58,392 bases of DNA from contig CALEAV010000052.1 of the NCBI GenBank assembly GCA_937943575.1, positions 1-58,392 on the forward strand. The letters are read 5' to 3'. Source of the DNA: an uncultured bacterium (GTDB lineage: Bacteria > Desulfobacterota > Desulfobaccia > Desulfobaccales > 0-14-0-80-60-11). The position numbers and the translations under genes were made by a program. The notes beneath the pieces were generated by a model. That model was not told where the DNA came from, did no database searches, and worked only from the letters and a program-made list of their open reading frames with translations. Below, in pieces: positions 9,201-51,766 of the stretch. The first letter of the stretch is position 1; every line of letters starts with the position of its first letter.

Positions 9201-10217
9201 ATGCACATCGGCCGCCAGTCGGAGATTTCACCCCAGGCCATCATCGAAGAGCCGGAAAACGTGGTCATCGGGGATCATGTGCAGATCAAGGCGGGGGTGG
9301 TGCTGCGCCCGGAGACCGGCTTCATCGTCATCGGCAACCACGTGGTCATCGACCACTACACCCTTATCCACGGCAAGGGAGGGGTGGAGATCGGCGACTG
9401 GTGCATCATCGCCCCCCACTGCGGGCTCTTTGCCCAGAGCCATGCCTTTGACTCCTTTGACAAGCCCATCACCCTGCAGCCCCTCACCGGCAGGGGCATC
9501 ACCCTCATGGGGGACAATTTGCTGGAGGCCGGGGCCATCATCCTGGACGGGGTGACCCTGGGCAAGGGCACGGTGGTGGGGGCCGGCGCGGTGGTCACCC
9601 AATCCTTCCCCATGGCCAAGGTCATCGCCGGCAACCCGGCCCGCATCCTCAAGGACCGGGCCCCCCGGGACACCTGGGAATTCCGCACCTCCGAGCGGGC
9701 CTCGGTGGACCTCACCCCGCCGGAATACTGGCCCTACATCGAGCAGCGGGCAGCCTTCGGGAGGCAGCTTCTCACCCCTGCGGATGTGGTCCTGGATCTG
9801 GGTTGCGGCGAGGGCTATCTCACCAATATCTTCCGGGAAAAATGCAGCACCATCATCGGCGTGGACTACTGCGAGGCGGCGGTGGCCAAAGCCCGGGGGC
9901 GCTACGGGCTGGACTGCCGGCACATGAGCTGCACCGCCCTGGATTTCCCCCCGGCCTCCTTTGACGTGGTCACCTGCTTTGAGCTCCTGGAGCACCTTAC
10001 CCGGCTGCAGGCCAAAAGGACCGTGATGGAGATCCTGCGGGTGCTGAAGCCCGGCGGCCGGCTGGTGGGCTCCACCCCCCTGCGCCAGGGCGGCGAGGGG
10101 ATATACGCCACCTATTCCCATATCCATGAATACAGTGCCCAGGAATTGCGGGCCCTCCTGCAGCCCTTTGCGAAGGTGGAGATCACCGGCAATTATTTCC
10201 TGGCGGTCAAGGGCTGA
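9201..10217 (+). CDS. Fusion of hexapeptide-repeat acyltransferase and SAM-dependent methyltransferase
   Basis: A 338-residue two-domain protein. Residues about 1-155 form a left-handed beta-helix acyltransferase of the WbbJ/maltose-acetyltransferase type, with repeats such as VVIGDHVQIKAG and VEIGDWCIIAPHCGLF, and the terminal GAGAVVTQSFP...IAGNPAR. Residues about 175-335 form a class I methyltransferase with motif I DLGCGEGYL and the later FDVVTCFELLEHL and LKPGGRLVGSTP blocks. The ATG at 9201 follows a G-rich ribosome binding site; an upstream in-frame ATG gives a non-homologous extension. It probably decorates a surface sugar or nucleotide sugar by acylation and methylation, given the glycosyltransferase genes on both sides. 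Substrate unknown. Confidence 0.85.
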   Translation: MHIGRQSEISPQAIIEEPENVVIGDHVQIKAGVVLRPETGFIVIGNHVVIDHYTLIHGKGGVEIGDWCIIAPHCGLFAQSHAFDSFDKPITLQPLTGRGITLMGDNLLEAGAIILDGVTLGKGTVVGAGAVVTQSFPMAKVIAGNPARILKDRAPRDTWEFRTSERASVDLTPPEYWPYIEQRAAFGRQLLTPADVVLDLGCGEGYLTNIFREKCSTIIGVDYCEAAVAKARGRYGLDCRHMSCTALDFPPASFDVVTCFELLEHLTRLQAKRTVMEILRVLKPGGRLVGSTPLRQGGEGIYATYSHIHEYSAQELRALLQPFAKVEITGNYFLAVKG

Positions 10218-10335: not shown

Positions 10336-13300
10336 ATGAACATCTTGTTGGCCACCTCAGCGGCGCCGTCCCAGACCCCCTTTTCCACCACTGAGAAACG
10401 CCCGCCCCTGGGGCTGGGCTTTCTCATCTCCGTGCTCCGCCAGGCCGGGCACCGGGTCTTTTTCATTGACAACTACCTCAGACCCAGCAATTTCCTGGAC
10501 ACCGACTATCTGTGGCGCCATGACATCGAGGTGGTGGGGATCCATGCCAACACCATCTGTTTCCGGGACACCCGGCGGATGCTGTGGCGCCTGGAGTATC
10601 TGCGCCAGACCGGGCGCTGGCGGGGGAAGATCATCGTTGGCGGGCCCCATGCGGCGGTGGCCCCGGAGACCATCCCCGCCTTTGTGGACCATGTGGTCCA
10701 GGGGGAAGGGGAGCGAGTCCTTCTGGAGATCGTGGAGGGCCGGGAGACCCGGCGCCTGGTACGGGCCCCCCGCCTGGACAACCTGGACGAGCTGCCCCGG
10801 CCCGCCTGGGACTACTTCGTTCACCAGCCCTACACCTGGACGGGGGAGTGGTTCCCCGGCGCCCCGGTCTTCACCCTGAACACCAGCCGGGGTTGCCCCT
10901 ATGGGTGCACCTTCTGTTCCGTGGGCTCCATCTGGGGCCGCAAGTACACCTGCTTCAGCGCCGAGCGCATCGTGGCCGACGTTGAGTACTTAGTGAAGAC
11001 CTACGGGGCCCAGGGCATCTATTTCCGGGAAGACAACTTCACCGTCCACCGGGAGCGCACCGAAACCTTCTGCCGCCTCCTCCTGAACAAGGGCCTGAAA
11101 CTCACCTGGGCCTGCGAAACCCGGGTGGACGCCCTGGACCGGGAGCTCCTGGGCCTGATGCAGCGCGCCGGGCTGGCGGGGCTGTATTTCGGGGTGGAGA
11201 GCGGCTCGCCGGCGGTTTTGGAGCGCCTCCACAAGGGCATCACGGTGGAGCAGATCCGCGCCGCCTTCAGCTGGTGCCGGGAGCTGGGCCTGAGGACCGC
11301 GGCCAGCGTCATTGTGGGCACCCCCGGCGAGACCCCCCGGGACCTGGAGCTGACTGAGGCGCTCCTTGCCGAGATCCAGCCCACGGTCATCTGGCACAAC
11401 GTCTTTGTGGGCATTCCCACCAGCCGCCTCTACCGCCAGGTCCTGGAAGACCGGGAGTACGAGTTCATCGATGACCGGGGGCTGGTGTATCTCCCCGGGC
11501 ACGATGAGCGGGTGCGCCGGTTTTATGGCGGGCGCTGGGACGCCGGGGTGCCTCTGCGCCGGGGGCCGGATGGCGGCCCTGAGGACCCCGGAGTCAGCGT
11601 GGTGATGGCGGTGCACAACGGCGCCCCCTATCTCAGGGAGGCCGTCCAGAGCATTCTCGACCAGACCTACCCCCAGTTTGAGGTGATCATCATCGATGAC
11701 GCCTCCACCGACGCCACCCCGGAGATCCTGGCGCAGTTGAACGACTGCCGGATCAAGGTGCTGCGCAACCCCACCCGGCTGGGGCTCGCCGCCTCCCTCA
11801 ACCGGGGGATCCGGGAGGCCCGGGCCCCCTATATCGCCCGCATGGATGCCGATGACCTCTCCCTGCCGGAGCGGCTGATGCGCCAGCGGCAGTTCCTGGA
11901 GGAGCACCCCGACCATGCCCTGGTGGGGAGCAGCTACTACCAGATGGACGCCCAGGGCCGGATTGTGGGGCTGGTGCCGGTGCTCACTGACAATGAGGCG
12001 CTGCAGGCCGGTCTCCTGGAGCAGAACTGGTTCGGCCACGGCAGCGTCATGGTGCGCCGCCAGGCCCTCCTGGAGGTGGGGGGCTATAACGAGCGCTTCA
12101 CCTGCGCCCAGGACTACGACCTGTGGCTGCGGCTGGCGGAGCGCCATAAAATCGCCAACCTGCCGGAGCCCCTGTATTGCTGGCGCCGGACGGAGGGGGG
12201 CATCTCCCAGGCCCGGCGGGCGGAACAGGAGCATTTTGCCCGGCTGGCCAGACAGGAGGCCGCGGCCCGGCGGCAGGGCCTGCCCGAGGAGGCCCCCGCA
12301 GGGTCCCCTGCTCCGGCCGAGCCGCCCCTGGTGTCCGTCATTGTCCCCACCCACAACCGCCCCCAGATGCTGGTGGAGGCGGTGCAGAGCATCCTGAACC
12401 AGACGTATCCCCACATAGAGATTATCGTGGTGAACGACGGCGGGGTGGAGGTGGAAGGGGTCATCCGGTGGCTCAACCGCAACGGCACCATCACCTACGT
12501 GCGCCATGACCGCAACCGGGGGCTGGCCGCCGCCCGCAACACCGGCCTCAGGCTGGCCAGGGGCAAATACATCGCCTACCTGGACGACGATGACCTCTTC
12601 TATCCGGAGCATGTGGAGACCCTGGTCACGGCCCTGGAGGGAGGCCCCTACCGGGTGGCGTACACCGATGCCTGCCAGGCCGCCCAGGTGTGGGACCACG
12701 GCCGCTATGTCACCGTCAGCCGGGAGGTCAACTTCTCCCATGATTTCCAGCGGGATGAGCTTCTGGTGAGCAACCGCTTCCCGGTGCTCTGTGTCATGCA
12801 TGAGAAAGCCTGCCTGGAGGACGTGGGCCTCTTTGATGAAACCCTCACCAGCCACGAGGACTGGGACCTGTGGATCCGCCTGGCCCAGCGGGAGGATTTC
12901 CTTCACATTCCCAAGGTGACGGCGGAATACTCCTGGCGCACCGACGGCAGCACCATGACCAGCAGGTCCCCGGAGGACTTTGTCCGCACCCTGAAGGTGA
13001 TCTATGACCGCTACGCCCCCCTGGTGGCGGACAAGCCGGAGATCCAGGAAAAGCAGCGGCAATTCCTGGCCGGGGTGCTGCAGCGGCCGGAGGGTTCCTC
13101 CCCGCCCGGGCCGGGGGCGGCTGACGGTGCCGCGGCGCCCGGGGCGGCCCCCCTGGGAGAGCTGCTGGCCCCTTTGCCCCGGCCACCGGAAGAGGTGCCC
13201 CCGGCCGGAGAGCCCCCCGCTGCGGGGCCCGAGGCTCCCCCGGTGTCCATCATCATCCCGGTGTACAACAACCTGAAGCTCACCCGGGACTGCCTGGCCT

Positions 13301-14241
13301 CCATTGCGGCGCACACCCCGGCCGGGCTGTATGAGCTCATCGTGGTGGACAACGCCTCCACGGACCAAAGCGGCGCCTTCCTGGAGGAGCAGGCCCGGAG
13401 CGGGCGGCTGAGGCTTATCCGCAATGACGCCAATCTGGGGTTCTCCCGGGCCTGCAACCAGGGGGCCCAAGCCGCCCGGGGGGAGTTTCTGCTCTTCCTC
13501 AACAACGACACCCTGGTCACCGCCGGCTGGCTGGAGGCCCTCCTGGAGACGGCCCGGGAAGATGAGCGCATCGCGGCGGTGGGGGCCAAGCTTCTTTATC
13601 CCGACGACTCGGTGCAACACGCCGGGGTGGTTTTCAATCGTCACGGCACGGTCTACCATCTCTACCGCCATCTCCATCGGGACCATCCGGCAGTGAACAA
13701 GGTGCGGGAGTTTAGGGTGCTCACCGCCGCCTGCCTGCTGGTGCGGCGCACCGCCTTCTTTGAGGTGGGCCTCTTTGATGAACACTTTGTCAACGGCTTT
13801 GAGGATGTGGACCTGTGCCTGCGCCTGGGGGAGGCGGGCTGGCGGCTGATCTACCAGCCCGCGGCGGTGGTCTACCATCTGGAAAGCAAGACCCCGGGCC
13901 GCTTTGACCGGGAGTCGGAGAATATCCGCTATCTCCTGCGCAAATGGCAGGGCCGCCTGGTGCCCGATGATGAGGCCTACTATGAGGCGGACGGCCTCCG
14001 ACTGGAGTGGGTCCTGGATGCCCAGGGCCGGCGGCAGGCCGTGCTCCACGACCTGAACCCCAACCCCTACAAGGCGGAGGCCCGGGCGCTGGTGGAGCAG
14101 GGGGAGCTGGAAAAGGCCCTGGAGTGCTACCGGAGGGCCGCGCTCTTCAACCCCCTGGATCCCCGACACCACCTGCTCCTGGCGGAGATGGAGGTGGTCC
14201 GGGAGATGCTGGCGCCGCCGGACCAGGCGGTGCACGCCTGA
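10336..14241 (+). CDS. Multidomain B12-binding radical SAM / triple GT2 glycosyltransferase / TPR protein
   Basis: A 1301-residue cytoplasmic megaprotein. Domains in order: a cobalamin-binding-like Rossmann domain (about residues 1-150, PPLGLGFLISVLRQAGHRV); a radical SAM domain (about 170-400) with the 4Fe-4S CxxxCxxC at Cys187/191/194 (GCPYGCTFC) and the GVESGS block; then three GT-A family 2 glycosyltransferase domains. These begin near residue 418 (VSVVMAVHNG), 664 (VSVIVPTHNR) and 968 (VSIIIPVYNN), each with its metal-binding acidic motif (MDADD, LDDDD, NNDT-type). A short TPR-like tail ends at 1301 (ELEKALECYRRAALFNPLD). Pro/Ala/Gly linkers separate the GT2 domains. The ATG at 10336 has a GGGAGGA site. 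It lies 118 bases after the acyltransferase-methyltransferase gene. It presumably builds and chemically modifies a surface glycan; the reaction is unknown. Confidence 0.85.
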   Translation: MNILLATSAAPSQTPFSTTEKRPPLGLGFLISVLRQAGHRVFFIDNYLRPSNFLDTDYLWRHDIEVVGIHANTICFRDTRRMLWRLEYLRQTGRWRGKIIVGGPHAAVAPETIPAFVDHVVQGEGERVLLEIVEGRETRRLVRAPRLDNLDELPRPAWDYFVHQPYTWTGEWFPGAPVFTLNTSRGCPYGCTFCSVGSIWGRKYTCFSAERIVADVEYLVKTYGAQGIYFREDNFTVHRERTETFCRLLLNKGLKLTWACETRVDALDRELLGLMQRAGLAGLYFGVESGSPAVLERLHKGITVEQIRAAFSWCRELGLRTAASVIVGTPGETPRDLELTEALLAEIQPTVIWHNVFVGIPTSRLYRQVLEDREYEFIDDRGLVYLPGHDERVRRFYGGRWDAGVPLRRGPDGGPEDPGVSVVMAVHNGAPYLREAVQSILDQTYPQFEVIIIDDASTDATPEILAQLNDCRIKVLRNPTRLGLAASLNRGIREARAPYIARMDADDLSLPERLMRQRQFLEEHPDHALVGSSYYQMDAQGRIVGLVPVLTDNEALQAGLLEQNWFGHGSVMVRRQALLEVGGYNERFTCAQDYDLWLRLAERHKIANLPEPLYCWRRTEGGISQARRAEQEHFARLARQEAAARRQGLPEEAPAGSPAPAEPPLVSVIVPTHNRPQMLVEAVQSILNQTYPHIEIIVVNDGGVEVEGVIRWLNRNGTITYVRHDRNRGLAAARNTGLRLARGKYIAYLDDDDLFYPEHVETLVTALEGGPYRVAYTDACQAAQVWDHGRYVTVSREVNFSHDFQRDELLVSNRFPVLCVMHEKACLEDVGLFDETLTSHEDWDLWIRLAQREDFLHIPKVTAEYSWRTDGSTMTSRSPEDFVRTLKVIYDRYAPLVADKPEIQEKQRQFLAGVLQRPEGSSPPGPGAADGAAAPGAAPLGELLAPLPRPPEEVPPAGEPPAAGPEAPPVSIIIPVYNNLKLTRDCLASIAAHTPAGLYELIVVDNASTDQSGAFLEEQARSGRLRLIRNDANLGFSRACNQGAQAARGEFLLFLNNDTLVTAGWLEALLETAREDERIAAVGAKLLYPDDSVQHAGVVFNRHGTVYHLYRHLHRDHPAVNKVREFRVLTAACLLVRRTAFFEVGLFDEHFVNGFEDVDLCLRLGEAGWRLIYQPAAVVYHLESKTPGRFDRESENIRYLLRKWQGRLVPDDEAYYEADGLRLEWVLDAQGRRQAVLHDLNPNPYKAEARALVEQGELEKALECYRRAALFNPLDPRHHLLLAEMEVVREMLAPPDQAVHA

Positions 14242-18997: not shown

Positions 18998-20224
18998 TTA
19001 CCGTTTCAGGGCCAGGACCTCCTCCATCATGCTGTCGGTGGTGGTGATGATGCGGGAGTTGGCCTGGAAGGCCCGCTGGTAGAGGATCATGCGCACGAAC
19101 TCGTTCCCCAGGTCCACGTTGGACTGCTCCAGGGAGTTGGCGTTGATGCGCCCCAGCCCGTTGGTGCCGGGTGCGCCGGTGAGGGGCACGCCGGAGTCCT
19201 GGGTCTCGGTGTAGAGGTTGCTCCCTTCCCGGCGCAGCTTGCCGGGGGCGTTGAAGCGGGCCAGGGTGAGCTGGTAGTGGGGGATGATCTGGCCGTTGGA
19301 ATAGTGACCGGTGATGATGCCCTCGTTGTTGATGGAGATGCGCTGCAGGTAGCCCGGGCCGTAGCCGTCCTGGGAGGCGTAGTTGGTCACCGAGCTGGCG
19401 GCATACTGGGTGGTGCTGCCGCCGCTGGTGTTCCTGAGGCCCAGGTTGACGCTGCCGATGTTGTAGGCGGTTAAATCCATGACATAGAGGCCGCCGGAGA
19501 CCATGGTGCCGTTCTGGTCAAAGACCATGTCCGAGGGTCCGCCCCCGCCCTGATCCGTGATGAGGGCGGTGATATCCACCCCGTCCAGGGTGGCGGACAA
19601 GCTCCAGGTATTGTCGGCGGTTTTGGTGAAGGTGGTGGTGAGGGTGCGCATGTTGCCCAGGCGGTCATAAAGGCTCAGGGAGGTGGAGTAGTAGTCGCCC
19701 AGGGTCGCATTGGCGTCCAGGTTGAGGACCATCTCCACCGCCGTGGAGGCCCGGGGCGCGGCGTAGTTCTGGCTGATGGTGATGTCCGTGTCCACCCCGG
19801 TGGGGGTTTTGGTGACGGGGTCGATGAGCTTGCCCTGCACCCGGTAGCCGTGGGCGTTGATGAGATAGCCGTCCTTGTCCAGGGAGAAGTTGCCGTCCCG
19901 GGTGTAGAAGAGACTGCCGCCCAGGGGGTCCCGGACGATGAGGAAGCCGGTGCCGGTGATGGCCACGTCCACGTCGTCGGCGCTGGTCTCCAGGGAGCCC
20001 TGGGCCCAGACGGTGGCGATGTCGGAGATGCGGGCCCCCCGGCCCACCTGGCCCGGCCCCGAGCCGGTGGACACCAGCTGGGCCATGAGATCCTCAAAAT
20101 GCACGCTGCTGTACTTGAAGCCGATGGTGTTCAGGTTGGCGATATTGTCGCCCACCACGGTCATGGCCTCGCCGTAGCAGTTGAGGCCGCTCAAACCGCT
20201 GTACATGGCGGTGGACAGTGACAT
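18998..20224 (-). CDS. flgE: Flagellar hook protein
   Basis: Structural protein of the flagellar hook, secreted by the flagellar type III system. It has 408 residues, with the conserved N-terminal rod/hook segment (MYSGLSGLN...GDNIANLNTIGFK), the GTGFLIV and YTRDGNFSLDKDGYL blocks, and the C-terminal SNVDLGNEFVRMILYQRAFQANSRII coiled-coil segment. The length and the central domain fit FlgE rather than the shorter rod proteins FlgF/FlgG. It is the last gene of a minus-strand fliK-flgD-flgE operon, 73 bases after flgD. No clear terminator is visible downstream. Confidence 0.93.
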   Translation of the reverse strand: MSLSTAMYSGLSGLNCYGEAMTVVGDNIANLNTIGFKYSSVHFEDLMAQLVSTGSGPGQVGRGARISDIATVWAQGSLETSADDVDVAITGTGFLIVRDPLGGSLFYTRDGNFSLDKDGYLINAHGYRVQGKLIDPVTKTPTGVDTDITISQNYAAPRASTAVEMVLNLDANATLGDYYSTSLSLYDRLGNMRTLTTTFTKTADNTWSLSATLDGVDITALITDQGGGGPSDMVFDQNGTMVSGGLYVMDLTAYNIGSVNLGLRNTSGGSTTQYAASSVTNYASQDGYGPGYLQRISINNEGIITGHYSNGQIIPHYQLTLARFNAPGKLRREGSNLYTETQDSGVPLTGAPGTNGLGRINANSLEQSNVDLGNEFVRMILYQRAFQANSRIITTTDSMMEEVLALKR

Positions 20225-21127: not shown

Positions 21128-22927
21128 TCAGGCGAAGAAATCCACCCCTTGCGACTGACGCCGGCGGGAAGTTCCGTGGCCTGTGGGGCCCTCCTCCGGG
21201 CGCCGGAAACCGGACCGGTCACCAGCGGGGGCGGCGGCCGCCAGCAGCCGGGAGGCTGGCGGCAGCTGCACCTGAAACTGGCTGAGGATGAGGCCCTGGC
21301 GGGCGAGGGCCTGGACCAGCTGCTCCACCTGCGCCTGGGCCAGCTCCGCCACCTCCGGCCGGGAGACCAGGGCCTGGACCATGAGGCGCTCGCCCTGAAG
21401 GGTGAGGGCCAGCTCCACCCGCCCCAGCTCCGGGGGGGTGAGGGTGAGGCTGACCTGGGTCCGCCCGGGCTGCAGGTGCTGCAGGACGGTGTTTTCAATC
21501 TGGGACCACACGGCCTGGCGCCAGGCGGGAGTCGCCGGAAGGGCCGGGGCGGCCGGGCCGCTGACGGCGGAAGCAGCCGGCCAGAATTCCTGCACCGCCC
21601 CGGCAAAGGCGCTCTCCTGGGCGCCGGGGTGGGGTGAGGCGGAAAGAGGCGGCTTCGGGGAGCCGAAGTCATCGTTGCCATAATGGGCGGGCCCCTCCTC
21701 CCCCTCGAACTGGCGCGGCAGGGGCGCAAGCCGCAGCCGGGCCGGCAGATACAACGGCTTGGGGGCGTCCTGGGCCGGGGGCGGCGCCGGCTCCGGGGCC
21801 AGTTTCAGGAGGCGGGCCTTGAGCTCCTCGGCGGAACCCGGGCTGGCCCGGCCCCAGAGGGTGGCGACCATCTCTTCCGACAGCCCCGCCTGCCGCAGGA
21901 GCCCCGCCCACCTCTGGGCTGCCGCCTGCGGCTCCGGATCCAGACGGTCCGCCAGCTTCCGGGCCAGCTCCTCCGGGGCCTCTGGGGCGGCCTGCGGCTC
22001 CTGCCGGTCCCTGAGCAGCCGCCACACCTGGGCCAGAGGAAGGCCGTCGGGGGCGCCTTCCTCCAGGCGTGCCAGTTGCTCCGGGGGAATCCCGAGATGC
22101 TGCAGGGCCGTCTTCAGCTCCGGCCAGGCCTCCGCCGGCAGGCGCAGCCGCTCCCAGAGCTGCCGCCAGGTCTCCACCGCCCCGGACCCGGGGGCAGCAG
22201 CCTCCCTGAGCTCAGGGTTTCGGGCCTTGAGCCACTGGGAGCGCACAAGTTCCGGGGTGAGGCCGGTCTCCGCCACCCCGGGATGCCACAGGAGCTTGGC
22301 GGCCTGGTCGGGAGTCAGCCCCGCGGCCTGCAGGAGCAGTTGCGCCTCCGGCCGCCGTTCGGTGGGGAGCTTCAGCCCGCCGCCGGGGGCGACGGCCACC
22401 CGGTCCAGGAGGTCCGCCAAAACCGCCTCTTTTTCGGCGCCGGCGCCCCCCGGGGTTCCCGGGGCGGCCCCGTCTCCCGGCCTCCCCGCCAGCTTAAGGA
22501 GAAATTCCCGCAGCTCGGCCAGGCACAGCCCCTCCTCCTGCACCCCGGGCCGGGACAGGAATTCCTGCACCCGGGGCTCCGGCACCCCGGCGGCAGTGAG
22601 GTGCCGGGCCAGCTCCGGGAGCAGCTCCGGGGGGATGACCGCCCCGCCGTCCGCCCGGCAGGCCAGAGACTCAGGGCGCCGGCGCAAGAGGCGCACGCTG
22701 CCGGCCGGCCTTCCGCCTGGAGGGCACAGCGGAAGCTCCCCCGTTTCCGGCCGGCCGCCCTGCCGCGGCGTTGGGGCTGTCTCCAGGCCGTCCGCCTTTT
22801 GCAGGTGCTGCATCAGCCGCCCCTGAAAACTGGCCTGATGGAGATCGGGGGCGGTGCGGGCGGCGGCCCGGCCCTCCCTGGGGGAGGGGAGGGCGGAGAA
22901 AAGAGCGGCGGCGCTTCCGGGCATCAT
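21128..22927 (-). CDS. fliK: Flagellar hook-length control protein
   Basis: Secreted molecular ruler that sets hook length and switches export specificity. About 599 residues, with a long low-complexity Pro/Glu/Ala/Leu-rich N-terminal and central part. The conserved C-terminal domain (about residues 490-570) contains LTLTPPELGRVELALTLQG and LVQALARQGLILSQFQVQL. The ATG at 22927 is chosen because an AGGAG site lies 8 bases upstream; a GTG six bases earlier sits too close to it. It is the first gene of the fliK-flgD-flgE operon, about 40 bases downstream of a sigma-54 promoter. Confidence 0.88.
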   Translation of the reverse strand: MMPGSAAALFSALPSPREGRAAARTAPDLHQASFQGRLMQHLQKADGLETAPTPRQGGRPETGELPLCPPGGRPAGSVRLLRRRPESLACRADGGAVIPPELLPELARHLTAAGVPEPRVQEFLSRPGVQEEGLCLAELREFLLKLAGRPGDGAAPGTPGGAGAEKEAVLADLLDRVAVAPGGGLKLPTERRPEAQLLLQAAGLTPDQAAKLLWHPGVAETGLTPELVRSQWLKARNPELREAAAPGSGAVETWRQLWERLRLPAEAWPELKTALQHLGIPPEQLARLEEGAPDGLPLAQVWRLLRDRQEPQAAPEAPEELARKLADRLDPEPQAAAQRWAGLLRQAGLSEEMVATLWGRASPGSAEELKARLLKLAPEPAPPPAQDAPKPLYLPARLRLAPLPRQFEGEEGPAHYGNDDFGSPKPPLSASPHPGAQESAFAGAVQEFWPAASAVSGPAAPALPATPAWRQAVWSQIENTVLQHLQPGRTQVSLTLTPPELGRVELALTLQGERLMVQALVSRPEVAELAQAQVEQLVQALARQGLILSQFQVQLPPASRLLAAAAPAGDRSGFRRPEEGPTGHGTSRRRQSQGVDFFA

Positions 22928-22966
22928 CGGCACGGCTCCTGGCCCTGGATGGTCGGCTCTCTGGTG

Positions 22967-25962: not shown

Positions 25963-25981
25963 TACCGCCATCTCACCGTAT

Positions 25982-27208
25982 ATGAAATTTGCCACCTGTG
26001 TCAAGACGGCCCTGTTGTCGCTTAGGGTACACAAGCTCCGCAGCTTTCTCACCACCCTGGGCATCATCATCGGGGTGGGGGCGGTGGTGGTGGTGGTGGC
26101 CCTGGGGACCGGCGCCCGCCAGCAGGTGGCCCGGGAGATCGCCAGCGTGGGGGCCAACCTCCTCATGGTGCTCCCCGGGGCCACCACCGCCGGGGGGCTG
26201 CGCCTGGGGCTGGGGACCGCGCCCACCCTCACGGTGGGGGACGCCCAGGCCATCGCCCGGGAGATCCCCGCGGTGAAGGCGGTGGCCCCGGTGTGGGGCG
26301 AGGTGGCCCAGGTGGTGGCCGGCCCCCGCAACTGGTCCACCATCGTCAACGGCACCACCCCGGAATACCAGGAGGTGCGCCAGGTGGACATGGAGCTGGG
26401 CCGCTTCTTCACCCCCCAGGAGGGCGCCCGGGCCGCCAAGGTGGCGGTGCTGGGGGCCACGGTGCGCTATCAGCTCTTCGGCCCCGCCGACCCGGTGGGG
26501 CAGACCATCCGCATCCGCAATCAGCCCTTCGTGGTCATCGGGGTGATGGCCCCCAAGGGCCGCAGCGCCGGCGGCCGGGATCAGGACGACGTCATCCTGG
26601 TGCCCCTGGAGACCGCCCAGCGCCGGCTCTTCGGGACCGCCCTCCCCGGGGTGGTGCGCTACATCATGGTGTCGGCCACCGGCCCGGACACCCTGAAGAC
26701 CGCCGAGGAAGAGGTGGATCGGCTGCTGGCCCAGCGCCACCGGGCCCGGCGCTTCATGGAGAAGGACTACTCGGTGGCCAACTTCGCCGAGCTCATGGCG
26801 GCCCGGGAGGCCACGGTACGCACCGTCAGCCTGCTTCTGTGGGCCATCGCCTCCGTCTCCCTGGTGGTGGGCGGCATCGGCATCATGAACATCATGCTCG
26901 TGTCCGTCAAGGAGCGCACCCGGGAGATCGGCCTGAGGATGGCGGTGGGGGCCCGCAACCGGGACATCCTCCTGCAGTTCCTCACCGAGGCGGTGGTCCT
27001 GAGCCTCACCGGCGGCCTCATCGGCATCCTCGCCGGGGTGGGGGTGGCCCATCTGGTGGGTTATTTTATGGAGTGGCCCATCATTACCTCGCCCCTGGTG
27101 GCTTTGGCGGCATTGGGCCTGTCCGCTGCGGTGGGCATCTTCTTCGGCTATTTCCCGGCCCATCAGGCGGCCAAACTCAGCCCCATCGACACCCTGCGGT
27201 ATGAGTGA
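25982..27208 (+). CDS. MacB/FtsX-type ABC transporter permease
   Basis: A 408-residue inner-membrane permease of the MacB family (lipoprotein, peptide or drug export). One N-terminal membrane helix (residues about 17-42, [24 protein letters not shown]) precedes a large periplasmic MacB-PCD domain (about 60-280). Three C-terminal helices form the FtsX domain ([24 protein letters not shown]...). The sequence [17 protein letters not shown] is typical. The ATG at 25982 starts the family N-terminus. No ATP-binding subunit gene is adjacent, and no fused ATPase is present, so the ATPase must be encoded elsewhere. Confidence 0.88.
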
Positions 27209-27381
27209 GGGGCAGGCCTGCGGCCTTGCCATCCGGGGGGAATTACGCTACTGTGAGGCCCGCGGGGGAGTCACAGGTCTTGGCGCCGGCCCGGCCCGCC
27301 CGCCGAGGACAAGCCGGTCCGTCGCCCGGCGCGCCCGACCCCGCCCTGACCCGGAGAAACACGCAACGTCATTTTACCGGC

Positions 27382-43433: not shown

Positions 43434-43457
43434 TTTTGCCCGCCTGCCTGTATGGGG
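43434..43457 (-). terminator. Rho-independent terminator of the EF-G paralogue
   Basis: A perfect 10-bp stem GCAGGCGGGC / GCCCGCCTGC with a four-base loop; on the minus strand it is followed by TATTTTAATT. It lies 63 bases after the EF-G stop. Confidence 0.82.
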
Positions 43458-43459
43458 TC

Positions 43460-43513
43460 GGGGGAGGGGTTCGGGGGAGGGGGCAGGGGCCGTCGATCCC
43501 TGGCCCCCTCCCC
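43460..43513. repeat. G/C-tract palindromic repeat (copy 3)
   Basis: GGGGGAGGGG runs followed by GGGGGCAGGGGCCGTCGAT and the complementary arm ATCCCTGGCCCCCTCCCC. Close in sequence to the right part of copy 1. Confidence 0.65.
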
Positions 43514-43520
43514 TGAAGTT

Positions 43521-45590
43521 CTACTCTTTTTCTTTGGCCGCCCGGGCCTCGGCGATGATCTTTTCCGCCAGGTGCGGCGGCACCTCCTCGTAGTGGGAGA
43601 GCTCCATCTCGAAGGCCCCCCGGCCGCCGGTCTTGCTGATGAGGTCCGGGGCGTACATGAGCACCTCGGCCATGGGCACGTGGGCGGTGATGACCTGGTT
43701 CTTGCCCTGGGCCTCCACCCCCAGGACCCGGCCCCGGCGGCCGTTCAGGTCGCCGATGATGTCGCCCATGTTCTCCTCGGGCACGGTGACGGTCATCTTC
43801 ATGATGGGCTCCAAAAGCACCGGGTTGGCTTGCTGCACGCCCTTTTTGAAGCCCATGGAGCCGGCGATCTTGAAGGCCATGTCCGAGGAGTCCACTTCGT
43901 GGAAGGAGCCGTCATAGAGAGTGACCTTGACGTCCACCACCGGGAAGCCGGCCAGCACCCCCTCCTGCATGGCCTCCACGATGCCCTTTTCCACCGAGGG
44001 GATGTATTGCTTGGGGATGACGCCGCCCACGATGGCGTCCACGAACTCAAAGCCGCCGCCCCGGGGCAGGGGCTCGATCTCCAGCCAGGTGTCGCCATAT
44101 TGGCCCCGGCCCCCGGACTGGCGCTTGTATTTGCCTTGCACCTTGGTCTTGCCCTTGATGGTCTCCCGGTAGGGCACCTTGGGCAGGGTGAGATTGACCT
44201 CCACCCCGAACTTGCGCTTCATCTTCTCGGCGGTGGCCTCAATGTGCACCGCCCCCATGCCGGAGAGGAGGATCTCCTTGGTCTCCGGGTTGCGGGTGAG
44301 GCGCAGGGAGGGGTCTTCTTCCGTGAGCTTCTGGATGGCGGTGAAGACCTTGTCCTCTTCGCCCTTGACCTTGGGCTCCACCGCCAGGGTGATCATGGCC
44401 CGGGGCGGCTCCAGGACCGGGAGCAGCACCGGCTTGGCCTCGCTGGCCAGGGTGTCGCCGGTGACCGTCTCCTTGAGCTTGGCCACCGCGCCGAAGGCGC
44501 CGGGCCCCAGCTCCGGGACGGGCTTCTGCCCCTTGCCCTCCAGCAGGAAGAGCTGGCCGTAGCGCTCCGCCACCCCCTTATTGACGTTGTAGACGCTGGA
44601 GTCGGAGACCATCTTGCCGGAATAGACGCGAAAGAGGGAGAGCCGCCCGGCATAAGGGTCGGCCACGGTCTTGAAGACCTGAGCCGCCAAAGGCCCGTCG
44701 GGGTCGGCGGCCAGGGCCACCTCCTCCCCGGCGGGGGTTTTGCCTTTGATTTCGCCCCGGTCTTCGGGTGCCGGGAGGAAATGGTTGATGGCCTCCAAAA
44801 GCAGGGCCGGGCCCACGTTGGCCACCGAGGCCCCGAAGAGGACCGGGACGATCCTGCCCATGAGAGTCCCGATCCTGAGACCCCGGAGGACCTCCTCCGG
44901 AGTGAGCTCGCCCGCGTCCAGAAATTTCTCGATGAGCTCGTCGTCGCTTTCGGCGGCGTAGTTCATCAGATCGCCCCGGAGGCTCTCCACCTCCTCTTTG
45001 AGCTCCTCCGGGATGGGGCCGGCCTCCATCTTCCCCGCGCCGGTGAAGGCCTTCATCTGGATGAGGTCCACCACGCCCTTGAAGGCGGCTTCCCGGCCGA
45101 TGGGAAGCTGCACCAGCACGGGGGTGGCCTCCAGGATGTTTTTCACCGCCGTGAGCACCGGGGCATAATCGGCCCGCTCCCGGTCCAGCTTGTTGATGTA
45201 GATGAGGCGGGGCAGGCGGTAGGCATCGGCGGTGGCCCAGACCTTTTCGGTGCCCACTTTCACCCCGTCCACGGCGTCGATGACCACCACGCAGGCGTCG
45301 GCCACATGCAGCACCGCCCGGGTGTCGGCCAGGAAGTTGTCGTCCCCGGGGGTGTCGGCCACAAAGACGGTGTGCTTCTTCCAGGTGTAGTGGTGGAAGG
45401 CCGAGGAGATGGTGATCCTGCGTTTGATCTCCTCCGGCTCGAAGTCCAGGACGGAGGAGCCGTCATCCACTTTGCCCAGACGGGTGGTGGCTCCGGCGGT
45501 GAAGAGCAGGGCTTCGGCCAGGGAGGTTTTGCCGCAACCGCTGTGGCCTACCAGCGCGACATTGCGGATGTGTGCGGTTTTTCCGGACAT
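43521..45590 (-). CDS. Elongation factor G-like translational GTPase (EF-G paralogue)
   Basis: A 689-residue five-domain GTPase. G1 is VGHSGCGKTSL (about residues 14-24) and G4 is YINKLDRE. Switch II reads ADTPGDDNF, so the catalytic His of canonical EF-G/EF-Tu (DTPGH) is Asp here. Domains II-V are complete (domain IV includes YKRQSGGRGQYGDTWLEIEPL; domain V ends with PLAEVLMYAPDL-type sequence). It belongs to the EF-G-like/EF-G2 group, not the str-operon FusA. An AAGGAG site precedes the ATG at 45590. It is monocistronic between a plausible promoter and a terminator. Role is unknown: ribosome recycling, rescue or stress. Confidence 0.9.
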   Translation of the reverse strand: MSGKTAHIRNVALVGHSGCGKTSLAEALLFTAGATTRLGKVDDGSSVLDFEPEEIKRRITISSAFHHYTWKKHTVFVADTPGDDNFLADTRAVLHVADACVVVIDAVDGVKVGTEKVWATADAYRLPRLIYINKLDRERADYAPVLTAVKNILEATPVLVQLPIGREAAFKGVVDLIQMKAFTGAGKMEAGPIPEELKEEVESLRGDLMNYAAESDDELIEKFLDAGELTPEEVLRGLRIGTLMGRIVPVLFGASVANVGPALLLEAINHFLPAPEDRGEIKGKTPAGEEVALAADPDGPLAAQVFKTVADPYAGRLSLFRVYSGKMVSDSSVYNVNKGVAERYGQLFLLEGKGQKPVPELGPGAFGAVAKLKETVTGDTLASEAKPVLLPVLEPPRAMITLAVEPKVKGEEDKVFTAIQKLTEEDPSLRLTRNPETKEILLSGMGAVHIEATAEKMKRKFGVEVNLTLPKVPYRETIKGKTKVQGKYKRQSGGRGQYGDTWLEIEPLPRGGGFEFVDAIVGGVIPKQYIPSVEKGIVEAMQEGVLAGFPVVDVKVTLYDGSFHEVDSSDMAFKIAGSMGFKKGVQQANPVLLEPIMKMTVTVPEENMGDIIGDLNGRRGRVLGVEAQGKNQVITAHVPMAEVLMYAPDLISKTGGRGAFEMELSHYEEVPPHLAEKIIAEARAAKEKE

Positions 45591-45654
45591 CGGGATCTCC
45601 TTCTGCGGCGGTCCTGTTTCACCCCCGCTCACACGCCGGGGGCGAAACTTTATT

Positions 45655-45683
45655 TTCATATCAGATTTCAATGATTTTCACAA
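45655..45683 (-). promoter_or_regulatory. Candidate promoter of the EF-G paralogue
   Basis: On the minus strand TTGTGA (45678-45683), 17-base spacer, TATGAA (45655-45660), in the AT-rich patch 45640-45700. Confidence 0.4.
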
Positions 45684-46218: not shown

Positions 46219-48090
46219 ATGGCCAGGATGCGCCCGGAAAGGATCGACGGCCTGGACCGGGTCACCCCGGGGGAGCTGAAGGTTTTCCACTTCCTCCGGG
46301 AAGCGGCGCGGCCGCACCGGGATTTTGTGTGCTGGTACAGGCCCCTTCTGGGCGGCCCCGGGGTGGAGCCGGATTTTGTTCTCTTCGGCCAGCATCTCGG
46401 GCTTTTGGTGCTGGAAGTGAAGAACTGGATCCTCCCCCAGATCGTCGCCGCCGACCAGCACCAATTTGTCCTCCGGGTCAAGGACCGGGAGGAAAGGAAG
46501 ATCAACCCGGACCGGCAGGCCAAAAATTATGTGGACGCCTTGTTGGAAGCCCTCAAGGCGGTTCCGGCCTTCGTGGACCAGCCGCCGCCCCATTGCGGTC
46601 AGCTCAAGATACCGGTGGGGCGGATGGTGGTCTTTCCTTACATTTCCCAGGCAGATTACCTGCAATATGGTTTCAACCGGATCCTTCCCCTGGAACGGGT
46701 GCTTCTGCAGGAGGACCTTGACCCGGCGGGGGAGGTGATGGGGGACCCCTCGGGGCAGGCCTTCCGGGCGCGTCTGGCCCGGGCTTTTCCCTTTCCCTTT
46801 GCCGGCCTCACTCCCAAAGAGCTGGCCAAGCTGGAGGCCCTGCTCTGGCCGGAGGTCAGGCTGGACTTGCCCCTCCGCCAGGGAGCGGACAAAGCCCGCT
46901 TTCAGGCCGAGGTGCGGGCCCTGGACGACCTGCAGGCCCGGGTGGCCCGGCAGTTGGGCTCCGGCCACCGGCTCCTCAAAGGCCCGCCGGGCAGCGGCAA
47001 GACCCTGGTCCTCATTCACCGCTGCTATGTGCTCCGCAAATACCAGCCCCAGCCGCCCCGGATCCTGCTGGTGTGCTACATTATCGCCCTGGCCAGTTAC
47101 CTTAAGAGGCTTTTGCAGGAAAAAGGCCTGGGGATCGGCGAAGGCGGCGTGCACGTCCACCACTTCTATGAGCTCTGCTCCTTCATTTTGCAGAACTCCC
47201 TGGGGGAGCCGGTACAATTCAATGTCCCGGATTCCAGTTATTATGAGACCATCATCACCTACACCCTGGAATCGGTCCAGCAGGGGCTTCACCGGCTGGG
47301 GCAATTCGATGTGATCCTGGTGGACGAGGGCCAGGACTTCAGCAACGAGATGCTGAAAATTCTTTTGGGATTGCTGCACCCCGGCGGAGATCTGGTCATC
47401 GCCCTGGATGCCTACCAGGACCTCTATCGCCGCCAGACCTCCTGGCGCGCCCTGGGCATCCAGGCTCAGGGACGCAGCCTCTATCTCGGCCGGGTCTACC
47501 GGCACACCGCCGAAATCTTTGCCTTCACTCAGTGTTTCCTGGGGATGGCCCGCCCTCAGGAGCCGACTCTGCCCCTGTTTCCGGAGGAGGAGCTTGAGCA
47601 TGGCGAGCCGCCGCAGGTGCGCCGCTTCCCTGATATGGAGAAGCTGGAGGCCTTCCTGGTGACGGATATCCGCCGGCACCTGGACGCCGGGGCCTTTACC
47701 CGCGCGGAGATCGCCATCCTCTATGATGACAAGGTGTATGGGCCGGAGGGCTTTCATTACGGCGGCCGGGAGCTGCCCCGCCGCCTCAAGCAGCGGCTTC
47801 AGGCCGCCGGCATCCCGGTCAAATGGGTCTCCGAGGACCTCCGGGCCAAGGAACTCTTTGACATCACCACCGACCGGGTGTCTCTGGTGAGCATCCACAG
47901 CGCCAAGGGGCTGGATTTTGACCTGGTGTACGTGGTGGGCGCCGATCGCATCCGGGCCACGGACGAAACGCGTCCCTACCTCACCCGGCTCCTGTATGTG
48001 GCTCTCACCCGGGCCAAATACCGGCTGGTTATCCCCTATGTGGAAGAAAATGAGTTCATCCGGAAGATGGCACGGTGTCTGGAAGTGTAA
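46219..48090 (+). CDS. NERD-nuclease domain / superfamily 1 DNA helicase
   Basis: A 623-residue protein. The N-terminal NERD domain (about residues 15-150) has a PD-(D/E)xK-type core with PDFVLFG then LLVLEVKNW, so catalytic Asp, Glu and Lys are present. The UvrD/Rep-like helicase (about 235-620) has Walker [11 protein letters not shown] (about residue 253), Walker [21 protein letters not shown], motif [12 protein letters not shown] and motif [15 protein letters not shown]. The ATG at 46219 has no good ribosome binding site. A lone TATAAT occurs at 46142-46147 without a good -35. Downstream on the same strand lie SbcD-like and SbcC-like genes. DNA cleavage coupled to unwinding, in repair or defence, is inferred. 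Confidence 0.88.
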
Positions 48091-48092
48091 CC

Positions 48093-48174
48093 GTCGGGGG
48101 TGGCCAGGGCGGCACGCCCTTTTCAGCCGAGGCACTCTCGCCTCGGTCCCATGATGATGGGCCACCCCCCGGAC
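48093..48174. ncRNA. Folded intergenic element with a closing stem and internal hairpins
   Basis: Outer arms GTC plus GGGGGTGGCC (48093-48105) pair with GGCCACCCCC plus GAC (48160-48174, two-base bulge). Inside lie AGGGCG/CGCCCT (48106-48120), CCGAGGC/GCCTCGG (48127-48146) and CCCAT/ATGGG (48148-48161, partly competing with the outer stem). It could be a structured RNA, a REP/MITE-like repeat or a site used by the flanking genes. Function unknown. Confidence 0.45.
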
Positions 48175-48212
48175 CATTGTTTTCACCCCAGGATTGAAGG
48201 AGAATCCTCGCC

Positions 48213-49337
48213 ATGCCCCTGCGCCTGCTGCACACCGCCGATCTCCATCTGGGAATGAAGTTCACCGGCAGGTATCCCCCTCAGGTGCAAGAGCGCCTGA
48301 TCAGAGCCCGCCTGGAAACCCTGCACAACCTGGTGGAGGCCGCCAATGCGGCCGAGGCTGCGGTCTTGGTCATTGCCGGCGACCTCTTCCATGACCACCA
48401 CCTGCCGCGGCGGGACATCCGGGCCGCGGCCGAGGCTCTGGGGGACTTTGCCGGCCGGGTGGTGCTCATCCTGCCCGGGAACCACGATTTCCTCCAGGAA
48501 GGGGAATGCCCCCTCTGGGACCGCTTCCTGGAGGCCGCCGATGACCAGGTCCTGCTTCTGAAGGAGGCAAGGCCGTATTCCCTCTTGCAGTGGGACCTCC
48601 CTCTGATGATCTATCCCGGCCCCTGCACTGCCAAGCACTCCCCCACCAATGCCATCGGCTGGATTGAGCCGGGCCCCCGGGATCCGGACTTCTGGCATAT
48701 CGGGGTGGCCCACGGCAGCCTGGAGGGGGTGTCCCCGGATTTTGAGGGCCAATATTACCCCATGACCTGGGCGGAGCTCACCTTGGCCCATCTCGACCTG
48801 TGGCTGCTGGGACACACCCATGTGCGGCTGCCGGAGGGGGATCAGGGGCGGGAGGGCAGGGTATTCGTGGCCGGCACCCCGGAGCCCGACGGCTTCGACT
48901 GCCGCCATCCCGGGAACGCCTGGCTCATCGAGCTTAACGCGGACCGCTCCCTCTCATATCGCGGCCTGGTGACCGGCCGGCACCGCTTTGCGGTTCACGA
49001 AGTCGAGCTTTCCACCGAGGACGACCTGGAGGCTTTCCGGGCCCGTTTCCGCCAATTCGATCCCGAACGGGATCTCATCAGGCTCATCCTCCGGGGCCGT
49101 CTTCCGGGGGAGCTGTTTGCCCAGCGGGGCCAGTGGCTGGAGGAGCTGCAGCAGCAGGTCCTCTATCTGGAAGCCGACTTAAGCCGCCTGTTCCGGCGGA
49201 TCACTGCCGAGGACGTCAACCGGGAGTTCACGGCCGGGTCATTCCCCCACCAGCTTTTGACCCGGTTGGTGCAGGCCGGCGGGGATCCCCGGGTGCTGCA
49301 GCTGGCCTATGATCTCATCCAGGAGGTGAGGTCATGA
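48213..49337 (+). CDS. SbcD/YhaO-like metallophosphoesterase nuclease
   Basis: A 374-residue DNA exonuclease-type metallophosphoesterase. All metal-binding motifs are intact: TADLHLG (about residues 8-14), AGDLFHD, LPGNHDF, VAHGS and GHTHV. The C-terminal part (about 270-374) is helical and would contact the SbcC-like ATPase encoded next. The layout resembles Bacillus YhaO, the partner of YhaN. A GAAGGAGAA site precedes the ATG. Its stop overlaps the next start (ATGA), so the two subunits are coupled. It follows the NERD-helicase gene after 122 bases that hold a folded element. Confidence 0.9.
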   Translation: MPLRLLHTADLHLGMKFTGRYPPQVQERLIRARLETLHNLVEAANAAEAAVLVIAGDLFHDHHLPRRDIRAAAEALGDFAGRVVLILPGNHDFLQEGECPLWDRFLEAADDQVLLLKEARPYSLLQWDLPLMIYPGPCTAKHSPTNAIGWIEPGPRDPDFWHIGVAHGSLEGVSPDFEGQYYPMTWAELTLAHLDLWLLGHTHVRLPEGDQGREGRVFVAGTPEPDGFDCRHPGNAWLIELNADRSLSYRGLVTGRHRFAVHEVELSTEDDLEAFRARFRQFDPERDLIRLILRGRLPGELFAQRGQWLEELQQQVLYLEADLSRLFRRITAEDVNREFTAGSFPHQLLTRLVQAGGDPRVLQLAYDLIQEVRS

Positions 49338-51766
49338 TTCTCCGGGAGCTGAAACTCTGCCCCTTTGCGGGCCTGAGCTGCCAGGAGCTCACCTTTGCCC
49401 CGGGCCTGAACGTCATCCTGGGTCCCAATGAAGCGGGCAAAAGCACCATCGTCAATGCCCTGAAGCTGGCGCTGTTCATGCCCACCCGATATTACAAAAC
49501 CACCTTTGACAAGGAAATCCGCCGTTATCTGCCCCTGAGCGGCGGCGACACCATTCGGGTGGAGCTGCATTTCGTCTGTGAGCCCGCCGACACCCTCTAC
49601 CGTTTATCCAAGTCCTGGGGGGCGCGGGCCGAAAGCCGCCTGATTCTGGCGGACGGTGCTCTTTTGGCGGACCCGCAGGCGGTCCAGGAGAAGATGCGGG
49701 AACTCCTGGTGCTTACCGAAGGCACCTACCACAATGTGCTCTTTGCCTACCAATCCCGCCTGGGCACGACGCTGGAGGCCCTCCGGGAGGAACCGGAGGC
49801 GCGGCACCGGCTGGCGGACCTGCTGCGCCGCAGCATCTATGAGACGGACGGCGTCCCCGTGGACCTTCTCGAACAGCGCCTCAATGAGCGCCTGGATCAG
49901 TACTTCTCCCACTGGGACAGGGATCTGGCCAGACCGGAAGGGGATCGAGGTATTGACAATCCCTGGAAGAAGAAAGTGGGGAAAATCCTGCAAGCCTATT
50001 ACGAGCGGGAGCAATGGCGCCGGAAATTGAGAGAAGCCCAGGACTACGAAAGGGAGTTGGATGCCTTCAATGAGCGTCTCCGCCGCATGGGGGCCGAAGT
50101 GGAGAGCCTCAAGAAATACGTCGACACCCATCAGAAACTGGTGGCCGATGCGCGCCAGCGCCAGCTCCTGACGGCTCAGCTGGAGGCCCATCGCAAAGAT
50201 GAAAAGGAGTTGAAGGAAATCTGTCAGAAATGGCCGGTCCTGGAGAAAGAAATCGAGAACGGCACAACCTTATTGGCACAACGCCAAAAAGAGCAGCAAA
50301 GCCTGGATAAGGAGCTGGAGGAGGCCAAAAAATATGAGGCCTTAAAAGAGGCCCGGGACCGTTTCCAACGGGCGGAGAAGAAGCATCAGGCTGTGAAAGA
50401 GGCCAAGGCCGCTTTGGCGGACCTCAAAGAGGTCACCGCCACGGACCTTACCACCCTGCAGAACCTGAACCTGCGGTTGACCGACTGCCGGGCCCGCCTG
50501 GCTGCAGGGAGACTCCAGCTGCATTTTACTCCCCGGGTGGCCTTGACCCTGGAGGCAGCCAGGGACCTGGAAGAAGCCGCCCCCTACCCCCTCGCGGCCG
50601 GCCAGACCCTGGAGCTGGAGGCCGGCGGCCGGCTCTCTCTGGCCCATCCGGACTGGCAACTGACGGTGCGCTCCGGGGAGGTGGACTTTGAGGAGGTGGC
50701 GCGGGACTATACCCGGGTCCACAAGGAGATGCAGGACCTTCTGAAGCGTCTCCAGGTGAAGAGTCTTGAGGAGGCGCACCAGGCTTACGAAACTTATCGG
50801 GAGCAGCTCAATGTCATCAAGGCCCTGGAAGCCGATCTGGCAGAGATTCTGGGCGACACGTCCTACGAAGAGCTTAGGGCGACCCTCCAGGGGGCTGAGC
50901 CCACTGCCCCGCCCCGTCCCAGCAACGAGGTGGCCCTGCGCCTGGGGGAGGTAAGGACGGCCATCAGCCAGCAGGAGAAGGACCTGACAGAAAAGCGCGA
51001 GCAGCTGAGCAAGTGGCAGGAGGCCCACCACTCCCTGGACCGCTTGCTGGACCGGCAAGTGGACGTCCGCGCCGGGATCAGACGGCTGGAAGGGGAACTC
51101 CAGGCTCTCACCCCCCTGCCTCCCGACATTACAGATGTGGAAGCCTTCATCGCCGGGTTTGAGGAGCAGGAGAGGCAGCTCAAGCTCAAAGAGAGGGAAT
51201 TCCAGGAGCTGCTGCTGCAAAGGGCGGAGTTCCAAACCCAGGCTCCGGGCGAAACCGTTGAGGAGATCCTCCCGCAACTGCAGGAGGCGGAGCGCCTGTT
51301 TGCGGAGGCCCGGCAGGAAGGCGAAGCCCTCCTGGCCATCCGGCAGGCCTTTGACGAGGTCAAGGGGCAGATGGATGGGCAGACCCTGACCCCCTGGCTG
51401 GAGGACCTGCAAAACCTCCTGGGAACCCTCACCGGCGGGCGCTATGTCACCGTGGAATTTCCTGACCAGGGGGAGGAAAGGGCGGTGCGGCAAGATGGCC
51501 TGAAGGTGCCGGCCCTGCTTCTCTCCGGGGGCGCCAAGGTCAGCTTCGGCCTGGCAGTGCGGCTGTCCATGGCAGCCCATTTCCTTCATGGGCTCCAGGG
51601 GTTCCTGGTTCTGGACGATCCCCTGGTGGACCTGGACGATGCCGGCCGACAGCAGGCGGCGGTGCAGGTCCTCCGGGAGTTTGCCCACCAAAAACAGGTC
51701 ATTGTGCTCACCTGCAAACGGAGCCATGCCGACCTGCTGGGCGGACATCGCATTGACCTGGCGTGA
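49334..51766 (+). CDS. SbcC/YhaN-like SMC-type ATPase without zinc hook
   Basis: An 810-residue Rad50/SbcC-type ATPase. Walker A is GPNEAGKSTI (about residues 31-40), a Q-loop-like segment lies near AYQSRLG, the ABC signature is LLSGGAKVSFGLAVR, and Walker B/D-loop is LVLDDPLVDLDDAGRQ. Two long coiled-coil stretches flank a compact beta-rich segment (about residues 395-452, ALTLEAARDL... TLELEAGGRLSLAHPDW). That segment occupies the place where SbcC and Rad50 have a CxxC zinc hook; no CxxC exists. It is coupled to the nuclease gene by ATGA. The pair would process DNA ends or hairpins. A 405-base gap follows with no gene. Confidence 0.9.
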   Translation: MILRELKLCPFAGLSCQELTFAPGLNVILGPNEAGKSTIVNALKLALFMPTRYYKTTFDKEIRRYLPLSGGDTIRVELHFVCEPADTLYRLSKSWGARAESRLILADGALLADPQAVQEKMRELLVLTEGTYHNVLFAYQSRLGTTLEALREEPEARHRLADLLRRSIYETDGVPVDLLEQRLNERLDQYFSHWDRDLARPEGDRGIDNPWKKKVGKILQAYYEREQWRRKLREAQDYERELDAFNERLRRMGAEVESLKKYVDTHQKLVADARQRQLLTAQLEAHRKDEKELKEICQKWPVLEKEIENGTTLLAQRQKEQQSLDKELEEAKKYEALKEARDRFQRAEKKHQAVKEAKAALADLKEVTATDLTTLQNLNLRLTDCRARLAAGRLQLHFTPRVALTLEAARDLEEAAPYPLAAGQTLELEAGGRLSLAHPDWQLTVRSGEVDFEEVARDYTRVHKEMQDLLKRLQVKSLEEAHQAYETYREQLNVIKALEADLAEILGDTSYEELRATLQGAEPTAPPRPSNEVALRLGEVRTAISQQEKDLTEKREQLSKWQEAHHSLDRLLDRQVDVRAGIRRLEGELQALTPLPPDITDVEAFIAGFEEQERQLKLKEREFQELLLQRAEFQTQAPGETVEEILPQLQEAERLFAEARQEGEALLAIRQAFDEVKGQMDGQTLTPWLEDLQNLLGTLTGGRYVTVEFPDQGEERAVRQDGLKVPALLLSGGAKVSFGLAVRLSMAAHFLHGLQGFLVLDDPLVDLDDAGRQQAAVQVLREFAHQKQVIVLTCKRSHADLLGGHRIDLA

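Follow-up and report, generated by a model that had tools for sequence, protein, structure and literature searches.

AprD4, the radical S-adenosylmethionine (SAM) 1,2-diol dehydratase of apramycin biosynthesis (PDB 6fd2), acts on a sugar; AprD4 and the reductase AprD3 are described as taking a hydroxyl off the sugar ring of paromamine, and GenK and GenD1 as carrying out cobalamin-dependent methylation of sugars (PMC5461906). FlmG, a flagellin O-glycosyltransferase of Caulobacter, is described as a modular soluble transferase with an N-terminal tetratricopeptide repeat (TPR) part that binds flagellin for glycosylation, a GT-B-type domain and no radical SAM domain (PMC7591256). For the viosamine island of Pseudomonas syringae, three enzymes are described as serving the sugar at the end of the flagellin glycan, namely the transferase VioT (1,173 residues), VioM (a methyltransferase) and VioB (an acetyltransferase); the passages that describe them mention no radical SAM enzyme (PMC3927599). 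We analyzed a stretch of 58,392 nucleotides from an uncultured bacterium of the Desulfobacterota (contig CALEAV010000052.1, positions 1 to 58,392, assembly GCA_937943575.1; hereafter, the window), in which one gene at 10336-14241 on the + strand encodes a 1301-residue protein that combines a B12-binding-like domain, a radical SAM domain, three glycosyltransferase family 2 (GT2) domains and a TPR-like tail. This protein is real and is a member of a coherent fused family that occurs in several phyla and is tied to flagella. Judged from sequences and structural models, its most likely function, which we propose with moderate confidence, would be the assembly of a flagellin glycan together with radical editing of a sugar.

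The reading frame was found to run without interruption from an ATG at 10336 to a stop at 14241. Two genomes of the same genus carry full-length orthologs with 86% and 82% identity, so the fusion is no assembly artefact, and the frameshift or assembly join that a preliminary description of this DNA had named as a way its single 1301-residue protein could prove false is excluded. The choice of start codon is supported by the orthologs, whose alignment begins at residue 1. The source genome (2.58 Mb, 62 contigs, 95.8% complete) contained no second full copy, its remaining matches being partial and 26-41% identical. The B12-binding domain, with a Rossmann fold as in cobalamin-type radical SAM enzymes and AprD4 (residues 23-132; 10402-10731, + strand, as are all features of the gene), scored 41.5 bits with PF02310 (curated cut-off, 32.1), and the radical SAM domain (residues 182-340; 10879-11355) scored 81.9 bits with PF04055 (curated cut-off, 29.5). 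The latter contains the [4Fe-4S] cluster motif CxxxCxxC as CPYGCTFC (residues 187-194; 10894-10917), which is kept in all 28 distinct orthologs described below, and an AlphaFold2 model of residues 1-402 (predicted local distance difference test [pLDDT], 92.8; predicted template modelling score, 0.91) has the fold of the radical SAM superfamily. These results agree with the cobalamin-type module with an intact cluster motif that had been proposed earlier.

The Pfam family Glycos_transf_2 (PF00535) matched three stretches of the protein, with 339 bits against a curated cut-off of 23.3. As first claimed, all three keep the acidic catalytic motifs of GT2 enzymes: IIDDAS 452, ARMDADD 501 and AQDYDLW 591 in domain A (approximately residues 415-650; 11578-12285); VVNDGG 698, YLDDDD 748 and HEDWDLW 840 in domain B (approximately residues 655-935; 12298-13140); and VVDNAS 1003, LNNDT 1055 and FEDVDLC 1155 in domain C (approximately residues 960-1225; 13213-14010). 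In sequence, domain B is similar to PglI and domain C to polypeptide N-acetylgalactosamine (GalNAc) transferases. In a model of residues 956-1301 (pLDDT, 91.8), the top fold match of domain C was GalNAc-T2 (Z 24.3), with a plain GT2 enzyme (6p61) approximately 1 Z unit lower at 23.3, and the likeness of this modelled domain to GalNAc-transferases is a lead only. The mycofactocin glycosyltransferase MftF was rejected as an assignment: the 295.3 bits obtained with its profile (TIGR03965; threshold, 280) are a whole-protein sum over the three GT2 stretches, the best of which matches just positions 67-280 of the 467 in the profile. No model in NCBIfam spans the whole architecture, in line with the earlier remark that this domain order was not known from a characterized enzyme.

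The TPR tail noted in the preliminary description held up only in part. In the window protein all TPR scores were under the Pfam cut-offs (TPR_11, 23.1 against 26.8; TPR_14, 22.8 against 23.5; TPR_2, 19.8 against 27). The tail nevertheless appears to be real, since in two relatives (loci L014 and L021) TPR_2 scored 35.8 and 36.1 bits, over the cut-off of 27, and since the tail is modelled as three helices (residues 1244-1292; 14065-14211) in which ten-residue blocks average a pLDDT of at least 87; it comprises only about 1.5 repeats. A short C-terminal tail and GT2 domains exclude a transferase of the FlmG type as described above, and the window protein resembles FlmG as a modular, presumably soluble transferase with a TPR-like part.

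Residues 1-400 were used to seek relatives of the radical SAM part in a sample of 394 genomes from the window's phylum, of which 12 contained an ortholog (at least 456 bits), the best match elsewhere reaching no more than 177 bits. A contig scan across phyla was then considered for the best 80 of 138 confirmed stretches, representing 79 loci, and further members are possible. Removal of 13 exact duplicates from 41 ortholog matches left 28 distinct members, 17 of them fused to GT2 domains in one frame and 11 unfused; identity to the radical SAM part of the window protein was 60.6-100% for the fused and 51.6-57.7% for the unfused members. In an IQ-TREE phylogeny of the 28 orthologs and 16 of 23 candidate paralogs, orthologs were split from paralogs with support of 100/100, and the fused members formed one clade (98/97). 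The unfused members do not form one clade and all lie outside the fused clade, which fits a fusion that arose after the unfused state. The records of the fused members are labelled Syntrophales or Desulfobacca, Thermodesulfovibrionales, Chitinispirillaceae, Planctomycetota and others. The number and order of glycosyltransferase domains differ among members, several of which have one such domain before the radical SAM part. A planctomycete member of 3719 residues (L034:4846-16002) has six recognizable GT2 domains downstream of radical SAM, and one genome (G060) carries two distinct fused copies, L029 and L032 (711 and 654 bits to the query), only one of which has the extra glycosyltransferase domain before radical SAM.

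The presence of flagellin was determined by searching genomes with PF00669. Among the first 23 genomes behind the loci, flagellin was found in 15 of 15 with the fused form versus 1 of 8 with the unfused form, and the addition of three further unfused genomes (G271, G165 and G377), one of them flagellin-positive, brought the unfused total to 2 of 11 (Fisher p=1.8e-5, not corrected for relatedness). A base rate was obtained from a sample of 80 genomes, namely the 12 with an ortholog, relatives belonging to the window's order and approximately every sixth of the rest; flagellin was present in 41 of the 68 Desulfobacterota genomes without an ortholog, compared to which the fused genomes were still enriched (p=0.002). 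The genomes of the window's order were also split by their match to the whole protein. Flagellin was found in all 14 with a strong match (E 5.5e-104 or better), several of which lack the radical SAM part, versus 2 of the 15 others (E 4.5e-50 or worse; p=1.8e-6). The fused genes of the planctomycete clade sit in flagellar clusters: fliD is the next gene after the fused gene in four loci (L034, L038, L039 and L041) and lies one gene further in L040, the contig of L037 ending within the fused gene, and 24 neighboring proteins in four genomes of this clade include FliD, FlhB, FliR, FlgK, FliG, MotB, a flagellin-like FlgL, FliP, FlhA, MotA, FliH, FliO and a FliI-like ATPase. The 15 carriers of the fused gene that were examined thus have flagellin and, in the planctomycete clade, the gene is linked to flagellar genes, a context that would suit a flagellin glycosyltransferase. 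Given that the fused form tracks flagellin and, in the planctomycete clade, sits in flagellar clusters, the target is more probably flagellin than a lipid carrier. Of the earlier proposal that one protein both assembles a glycan and performs radical chemistry on it or on a lipid carrier, the coupling is plausible, and flagellin is favored over the lipid carrier.

The chemistry of the radical SAM part was approached through its nearest relatives of solved structure. By sequence and by the fold of the model, AprD4 is the nearest: it was found at 4.2e-28 in a sequence search against solved structures and at 2.6e-50 in a profile search (MgmA, 6.6e-21 and 2e-38), and it was the best fold match (Z 33.2; 381 residues aligned; root mean square deviation, 2.8), followed by OxsB (Z 31.0) and MgmA (Z 29.4). 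Two strand motifs, FREDNF (residues 230-235; 11023-11040) and WACETR (residues 258-263; 11107-11124), also occur in AprD4, as FR[ED]xxF and WxCE[TS]R. In an alignment of 27 of the 28 orthologs (L037 was left out) and 7 paralogs, the first motif was present in 27 of 27 orthologs and the second in 26 of 27, L094 having CELR instead. In 65 other B12-type radical SAM stretches the first occurred in none and the second in 1, and in 15 of 23 matches to the HpnJ or AprD4 models they occurred in 1 and 0, respectively, so that among the relatives compared only this subfamily and AprD4 combine the two. These shared sequence motifs offer a lead only. Unlike AprD4, the window protein is fused to glycosyltransferases and lies outside the AprD4 family NF033070; that membership was rejected since it scored 117 bits (119.7 in a genome search, under several unrelated B12-type enzymes) against a curated cut-off of 500, and identity to AprD4 in the structural alignment is 23%. 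NCBIfam scores were alike across families (ApyD, 136.5 bits; TIGR04072, 126; AprD4, 117; BchE, 117; PhpK, 116.6; HpnJ, 111.3), every one of them far under its cut-off and none standing out. Since no NCBIfam family comes near its cut-off, the radical SAM part is, judged by sequence, a subfamily of its own.

We tentatively favor AprD4-like 1,2-diol dehydration as the reaction class suggested by these sequence and model comparisons. A somewhat doubtful alternative, which concerns the chemistry and leaves the link to flagellin as it is, would make the radical SAM part a class B cobalamin-dependent C-methyltransferase that acts on a sugar in the manner of GenK and GenD1, whatever the final acceptor. 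The N-terminal Rossmann domain expected of that class is present and above its Pfam cut-off, the fold is near those of the cobalamin enzymes OxsB and MgmA, and the pairing of B12-binding Rossmann and radical SAM domains is shared with OxsB, MgmA, TokK, TsrM and CysS (fold Z 18-31); the methylation of sugars with cobalamin by GenK and GenD1, which are likened here by description only, provides a precedent. However, AprD4 aligns over the same N-terminal range, the nearest solved structure is AprD4 with its two strand motifs, a combination found in 0 of the 65 other B12-type stretches, and, unlike these cobalamin enzymes, the window protein reaches no curated family cut-off, and its NCBIfam scores single out no family. 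To our knowledge, AprD4 itself works without the use of cobalamin. Another reaction class, such as epimerisation or ring contraction, is likewise rather unlikely. A sugar substrate is compatible with both dehydration and methylation.

In the function that we propose, the protein would be a soluble multidomain enzyme. Its GT2 domains would assemble a short glycan on cytoplasmic flagellin with the aid of the short C-terminal TPR-like element, and its N-terminal radical SAM domain would modify a single sugar, either within this glycan or in the activated donor of the glycan; flagellin as the acceptor, a sugar as the radical substrate and the order of the steps are what we infer from the above comparisons. 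Since the radical SAM domain and GT2 domain A remain side by side in fused and unfused members alike, the sugar that domain A handles would probably be the substrate of the radical SAM domain. A domain or gene corresponding to domain A directly follows radical SAM in 27 of 28 loci, with 42-100% identity to domain A of the window protein except in L106 (30%); in the 28th locus, L104, the contig ends, and an 80-residue fragment of the next frame matches the same glycosyltransferase. Directly upstream in the window is a 338-residue protein in which Pfam recognizes a hexapeptide acyltransferase fused to a methyltransferase (9201-10217, + strand), which would add conventional decorations. A relative of it is found ahead of radical SAM in 7 of the 17 fused loci and in 4 of the 11 unfused ones, as two separate frames in L097, and some contigs start too near the gene to tell. 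By analogy, this protein and the radical SAM-transferase fusion would together look like a counterpart of VioT, VioM and VioB with an added radical step, the likeness being one of description: a long flagellin-glycan transferase accompanied by methyl and acetyl decoration.

Several observations weigh against this proposal. Within the Desulfobacterota the excess of flagellin is only 8 of 8 fused versus 41 of 68 genomes (p=0.045), and 2 of the 11 unfused genomes carry flagellin as well. The counts are not independent, since many of the fused genomes are relatives of one another and the fused clade arose once. There are flagellin-bearing relatives with strong glycosyltransferase matches and no radical SAM ortholog, which would make the radical step optional. 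The source genome encodes two full-length flagellins, one of them followed by fliD, on other contigs and not beside the gene, and the hook genes, encoding FlgE (18998-20224, - strand; Pfam) and the hook-length control protein FliK (21128-22933, - strand; domain search), are approximately 5 kb from the fused gene on the opposite strand. Finally, the motif link to AprD4 depends on a single characterized enzyme, and no AprD3-like reductase partner was identified beside the gene.

An unlikely alternative is that the fused protein contributes to a surface polysaccharide, such as O-antigen or exopolysaccharide, built on a lipid carrier, as its unfused relatives probably do, and that the link to flagella is a phylogenetic coincidence. 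Unfused orthologs lie among ABC-2/ABC exporters and genes for DegT, GT4, GT9, GT11, Wzy_C and a rhamnosyl O-methyltransferase family protein, the GT2 domains resemble O-antigen and polysaccharide transferases, and genes for an LptF/LptG-type permease and an ArnT-like transferase lie near the fused gene in the window. The preliminary description had looked to an association with these last two genes, but this looks like local synteny, since across the compared loci blastp found counterparts of ArnT-like and LptF only in the related loci L028 and L029. Flagellin in every one of the fused genomes, the adjacency of fliD and the flagellar clusters of the planctomycete clade also argue against a polysaccharide role. 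It is quite unlikely that radical SAM and transferases are independent members of one pathway whose ratio the fusion merely fixes, as the variable number and order of the glycosyltransferase domains and a Pro/Ala-rich linker between domains B and C might suggest, given that radical SAM and domain A are so consistently adjacent and that their junction is retained in a single clade that spans several phyla.

Flagellin glycans bear unusual sugars, and how these are customized is often unknown. The family also offers a candidate for an enzyme that modifies sugars by radical chemistry in a setting other than antibiotic biosynthesis. A more specific version of the proposed function, which we regard as speculative and on balance improbable, is that AprD4-like diol chemistry deoxygenates or otherwise rewrites a sugar during glycoprotein assembly and passes the product directly to the fused transferases acting on flagellin. 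Radical editing would then be built into a protein-glycosylation machine, the system having been derived once from an O-antigen-type pathway and having spread between phyla with flagella. Among the open-access papers listed in literature searches, no title or abstract beginning described a radical SAM enzyme paired with flagellin or flagella, although one may be described elsewhere, and those listed for radical SAM with glycosyltransferase, O-antigen or polysaccharide showed no such enzyme either. The fused family provides a direct handle: a single gene with a defined active site, flagellin as the candidate acceptor and glycopeptide mass as the readout. Its unfused relatives in polysaccharide clusters complement it.

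Upstream of one fused gene (L032) are genes for an NDP-sugar epimerase, a C-methyltransferase, a dTDP-sugar isomerase, a DegT aminotransferase, an acetyltransferase and a rhamnosyl O-methyltransferase family protein, all of which are sugar-tailoring genes. An unfused module in an Omnitrophota genome (L094:8999-13729) adjoins the BREX genes brxA, brxB and brxC. Nitrospira loci, including L057:2929-8427 and L105:7338-12755, encode large fusions of a methyltransferase, GT4/GT1-like domains, two or three GT2 domains and TPR; in several of them a different radical SAM gene, 24-31% identical, lies upstream, and tblastn found neither flagellin nor fliD in the retrieved Nitrospira and Brocadia loci with multiple glycosyltransferases. 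One radical SAM match (G315:C2:72146-72790) falls inside an open frame of 24,364 residues, an extraordinary length. Elsewhere in the window, open frames of 740 and 419 residues (43452-45674 and 25973-27232) had no Pfam match at E 0.001; the sequence is G+C rich (66.6% in the window), and these may be antisense frames. At 46219-51766, a NERD and UvrD-like protein, a metallophosphoesterase and an SMC/RecN-like ATPase are encoded in a row, possibly as a DNA repair or defence set.

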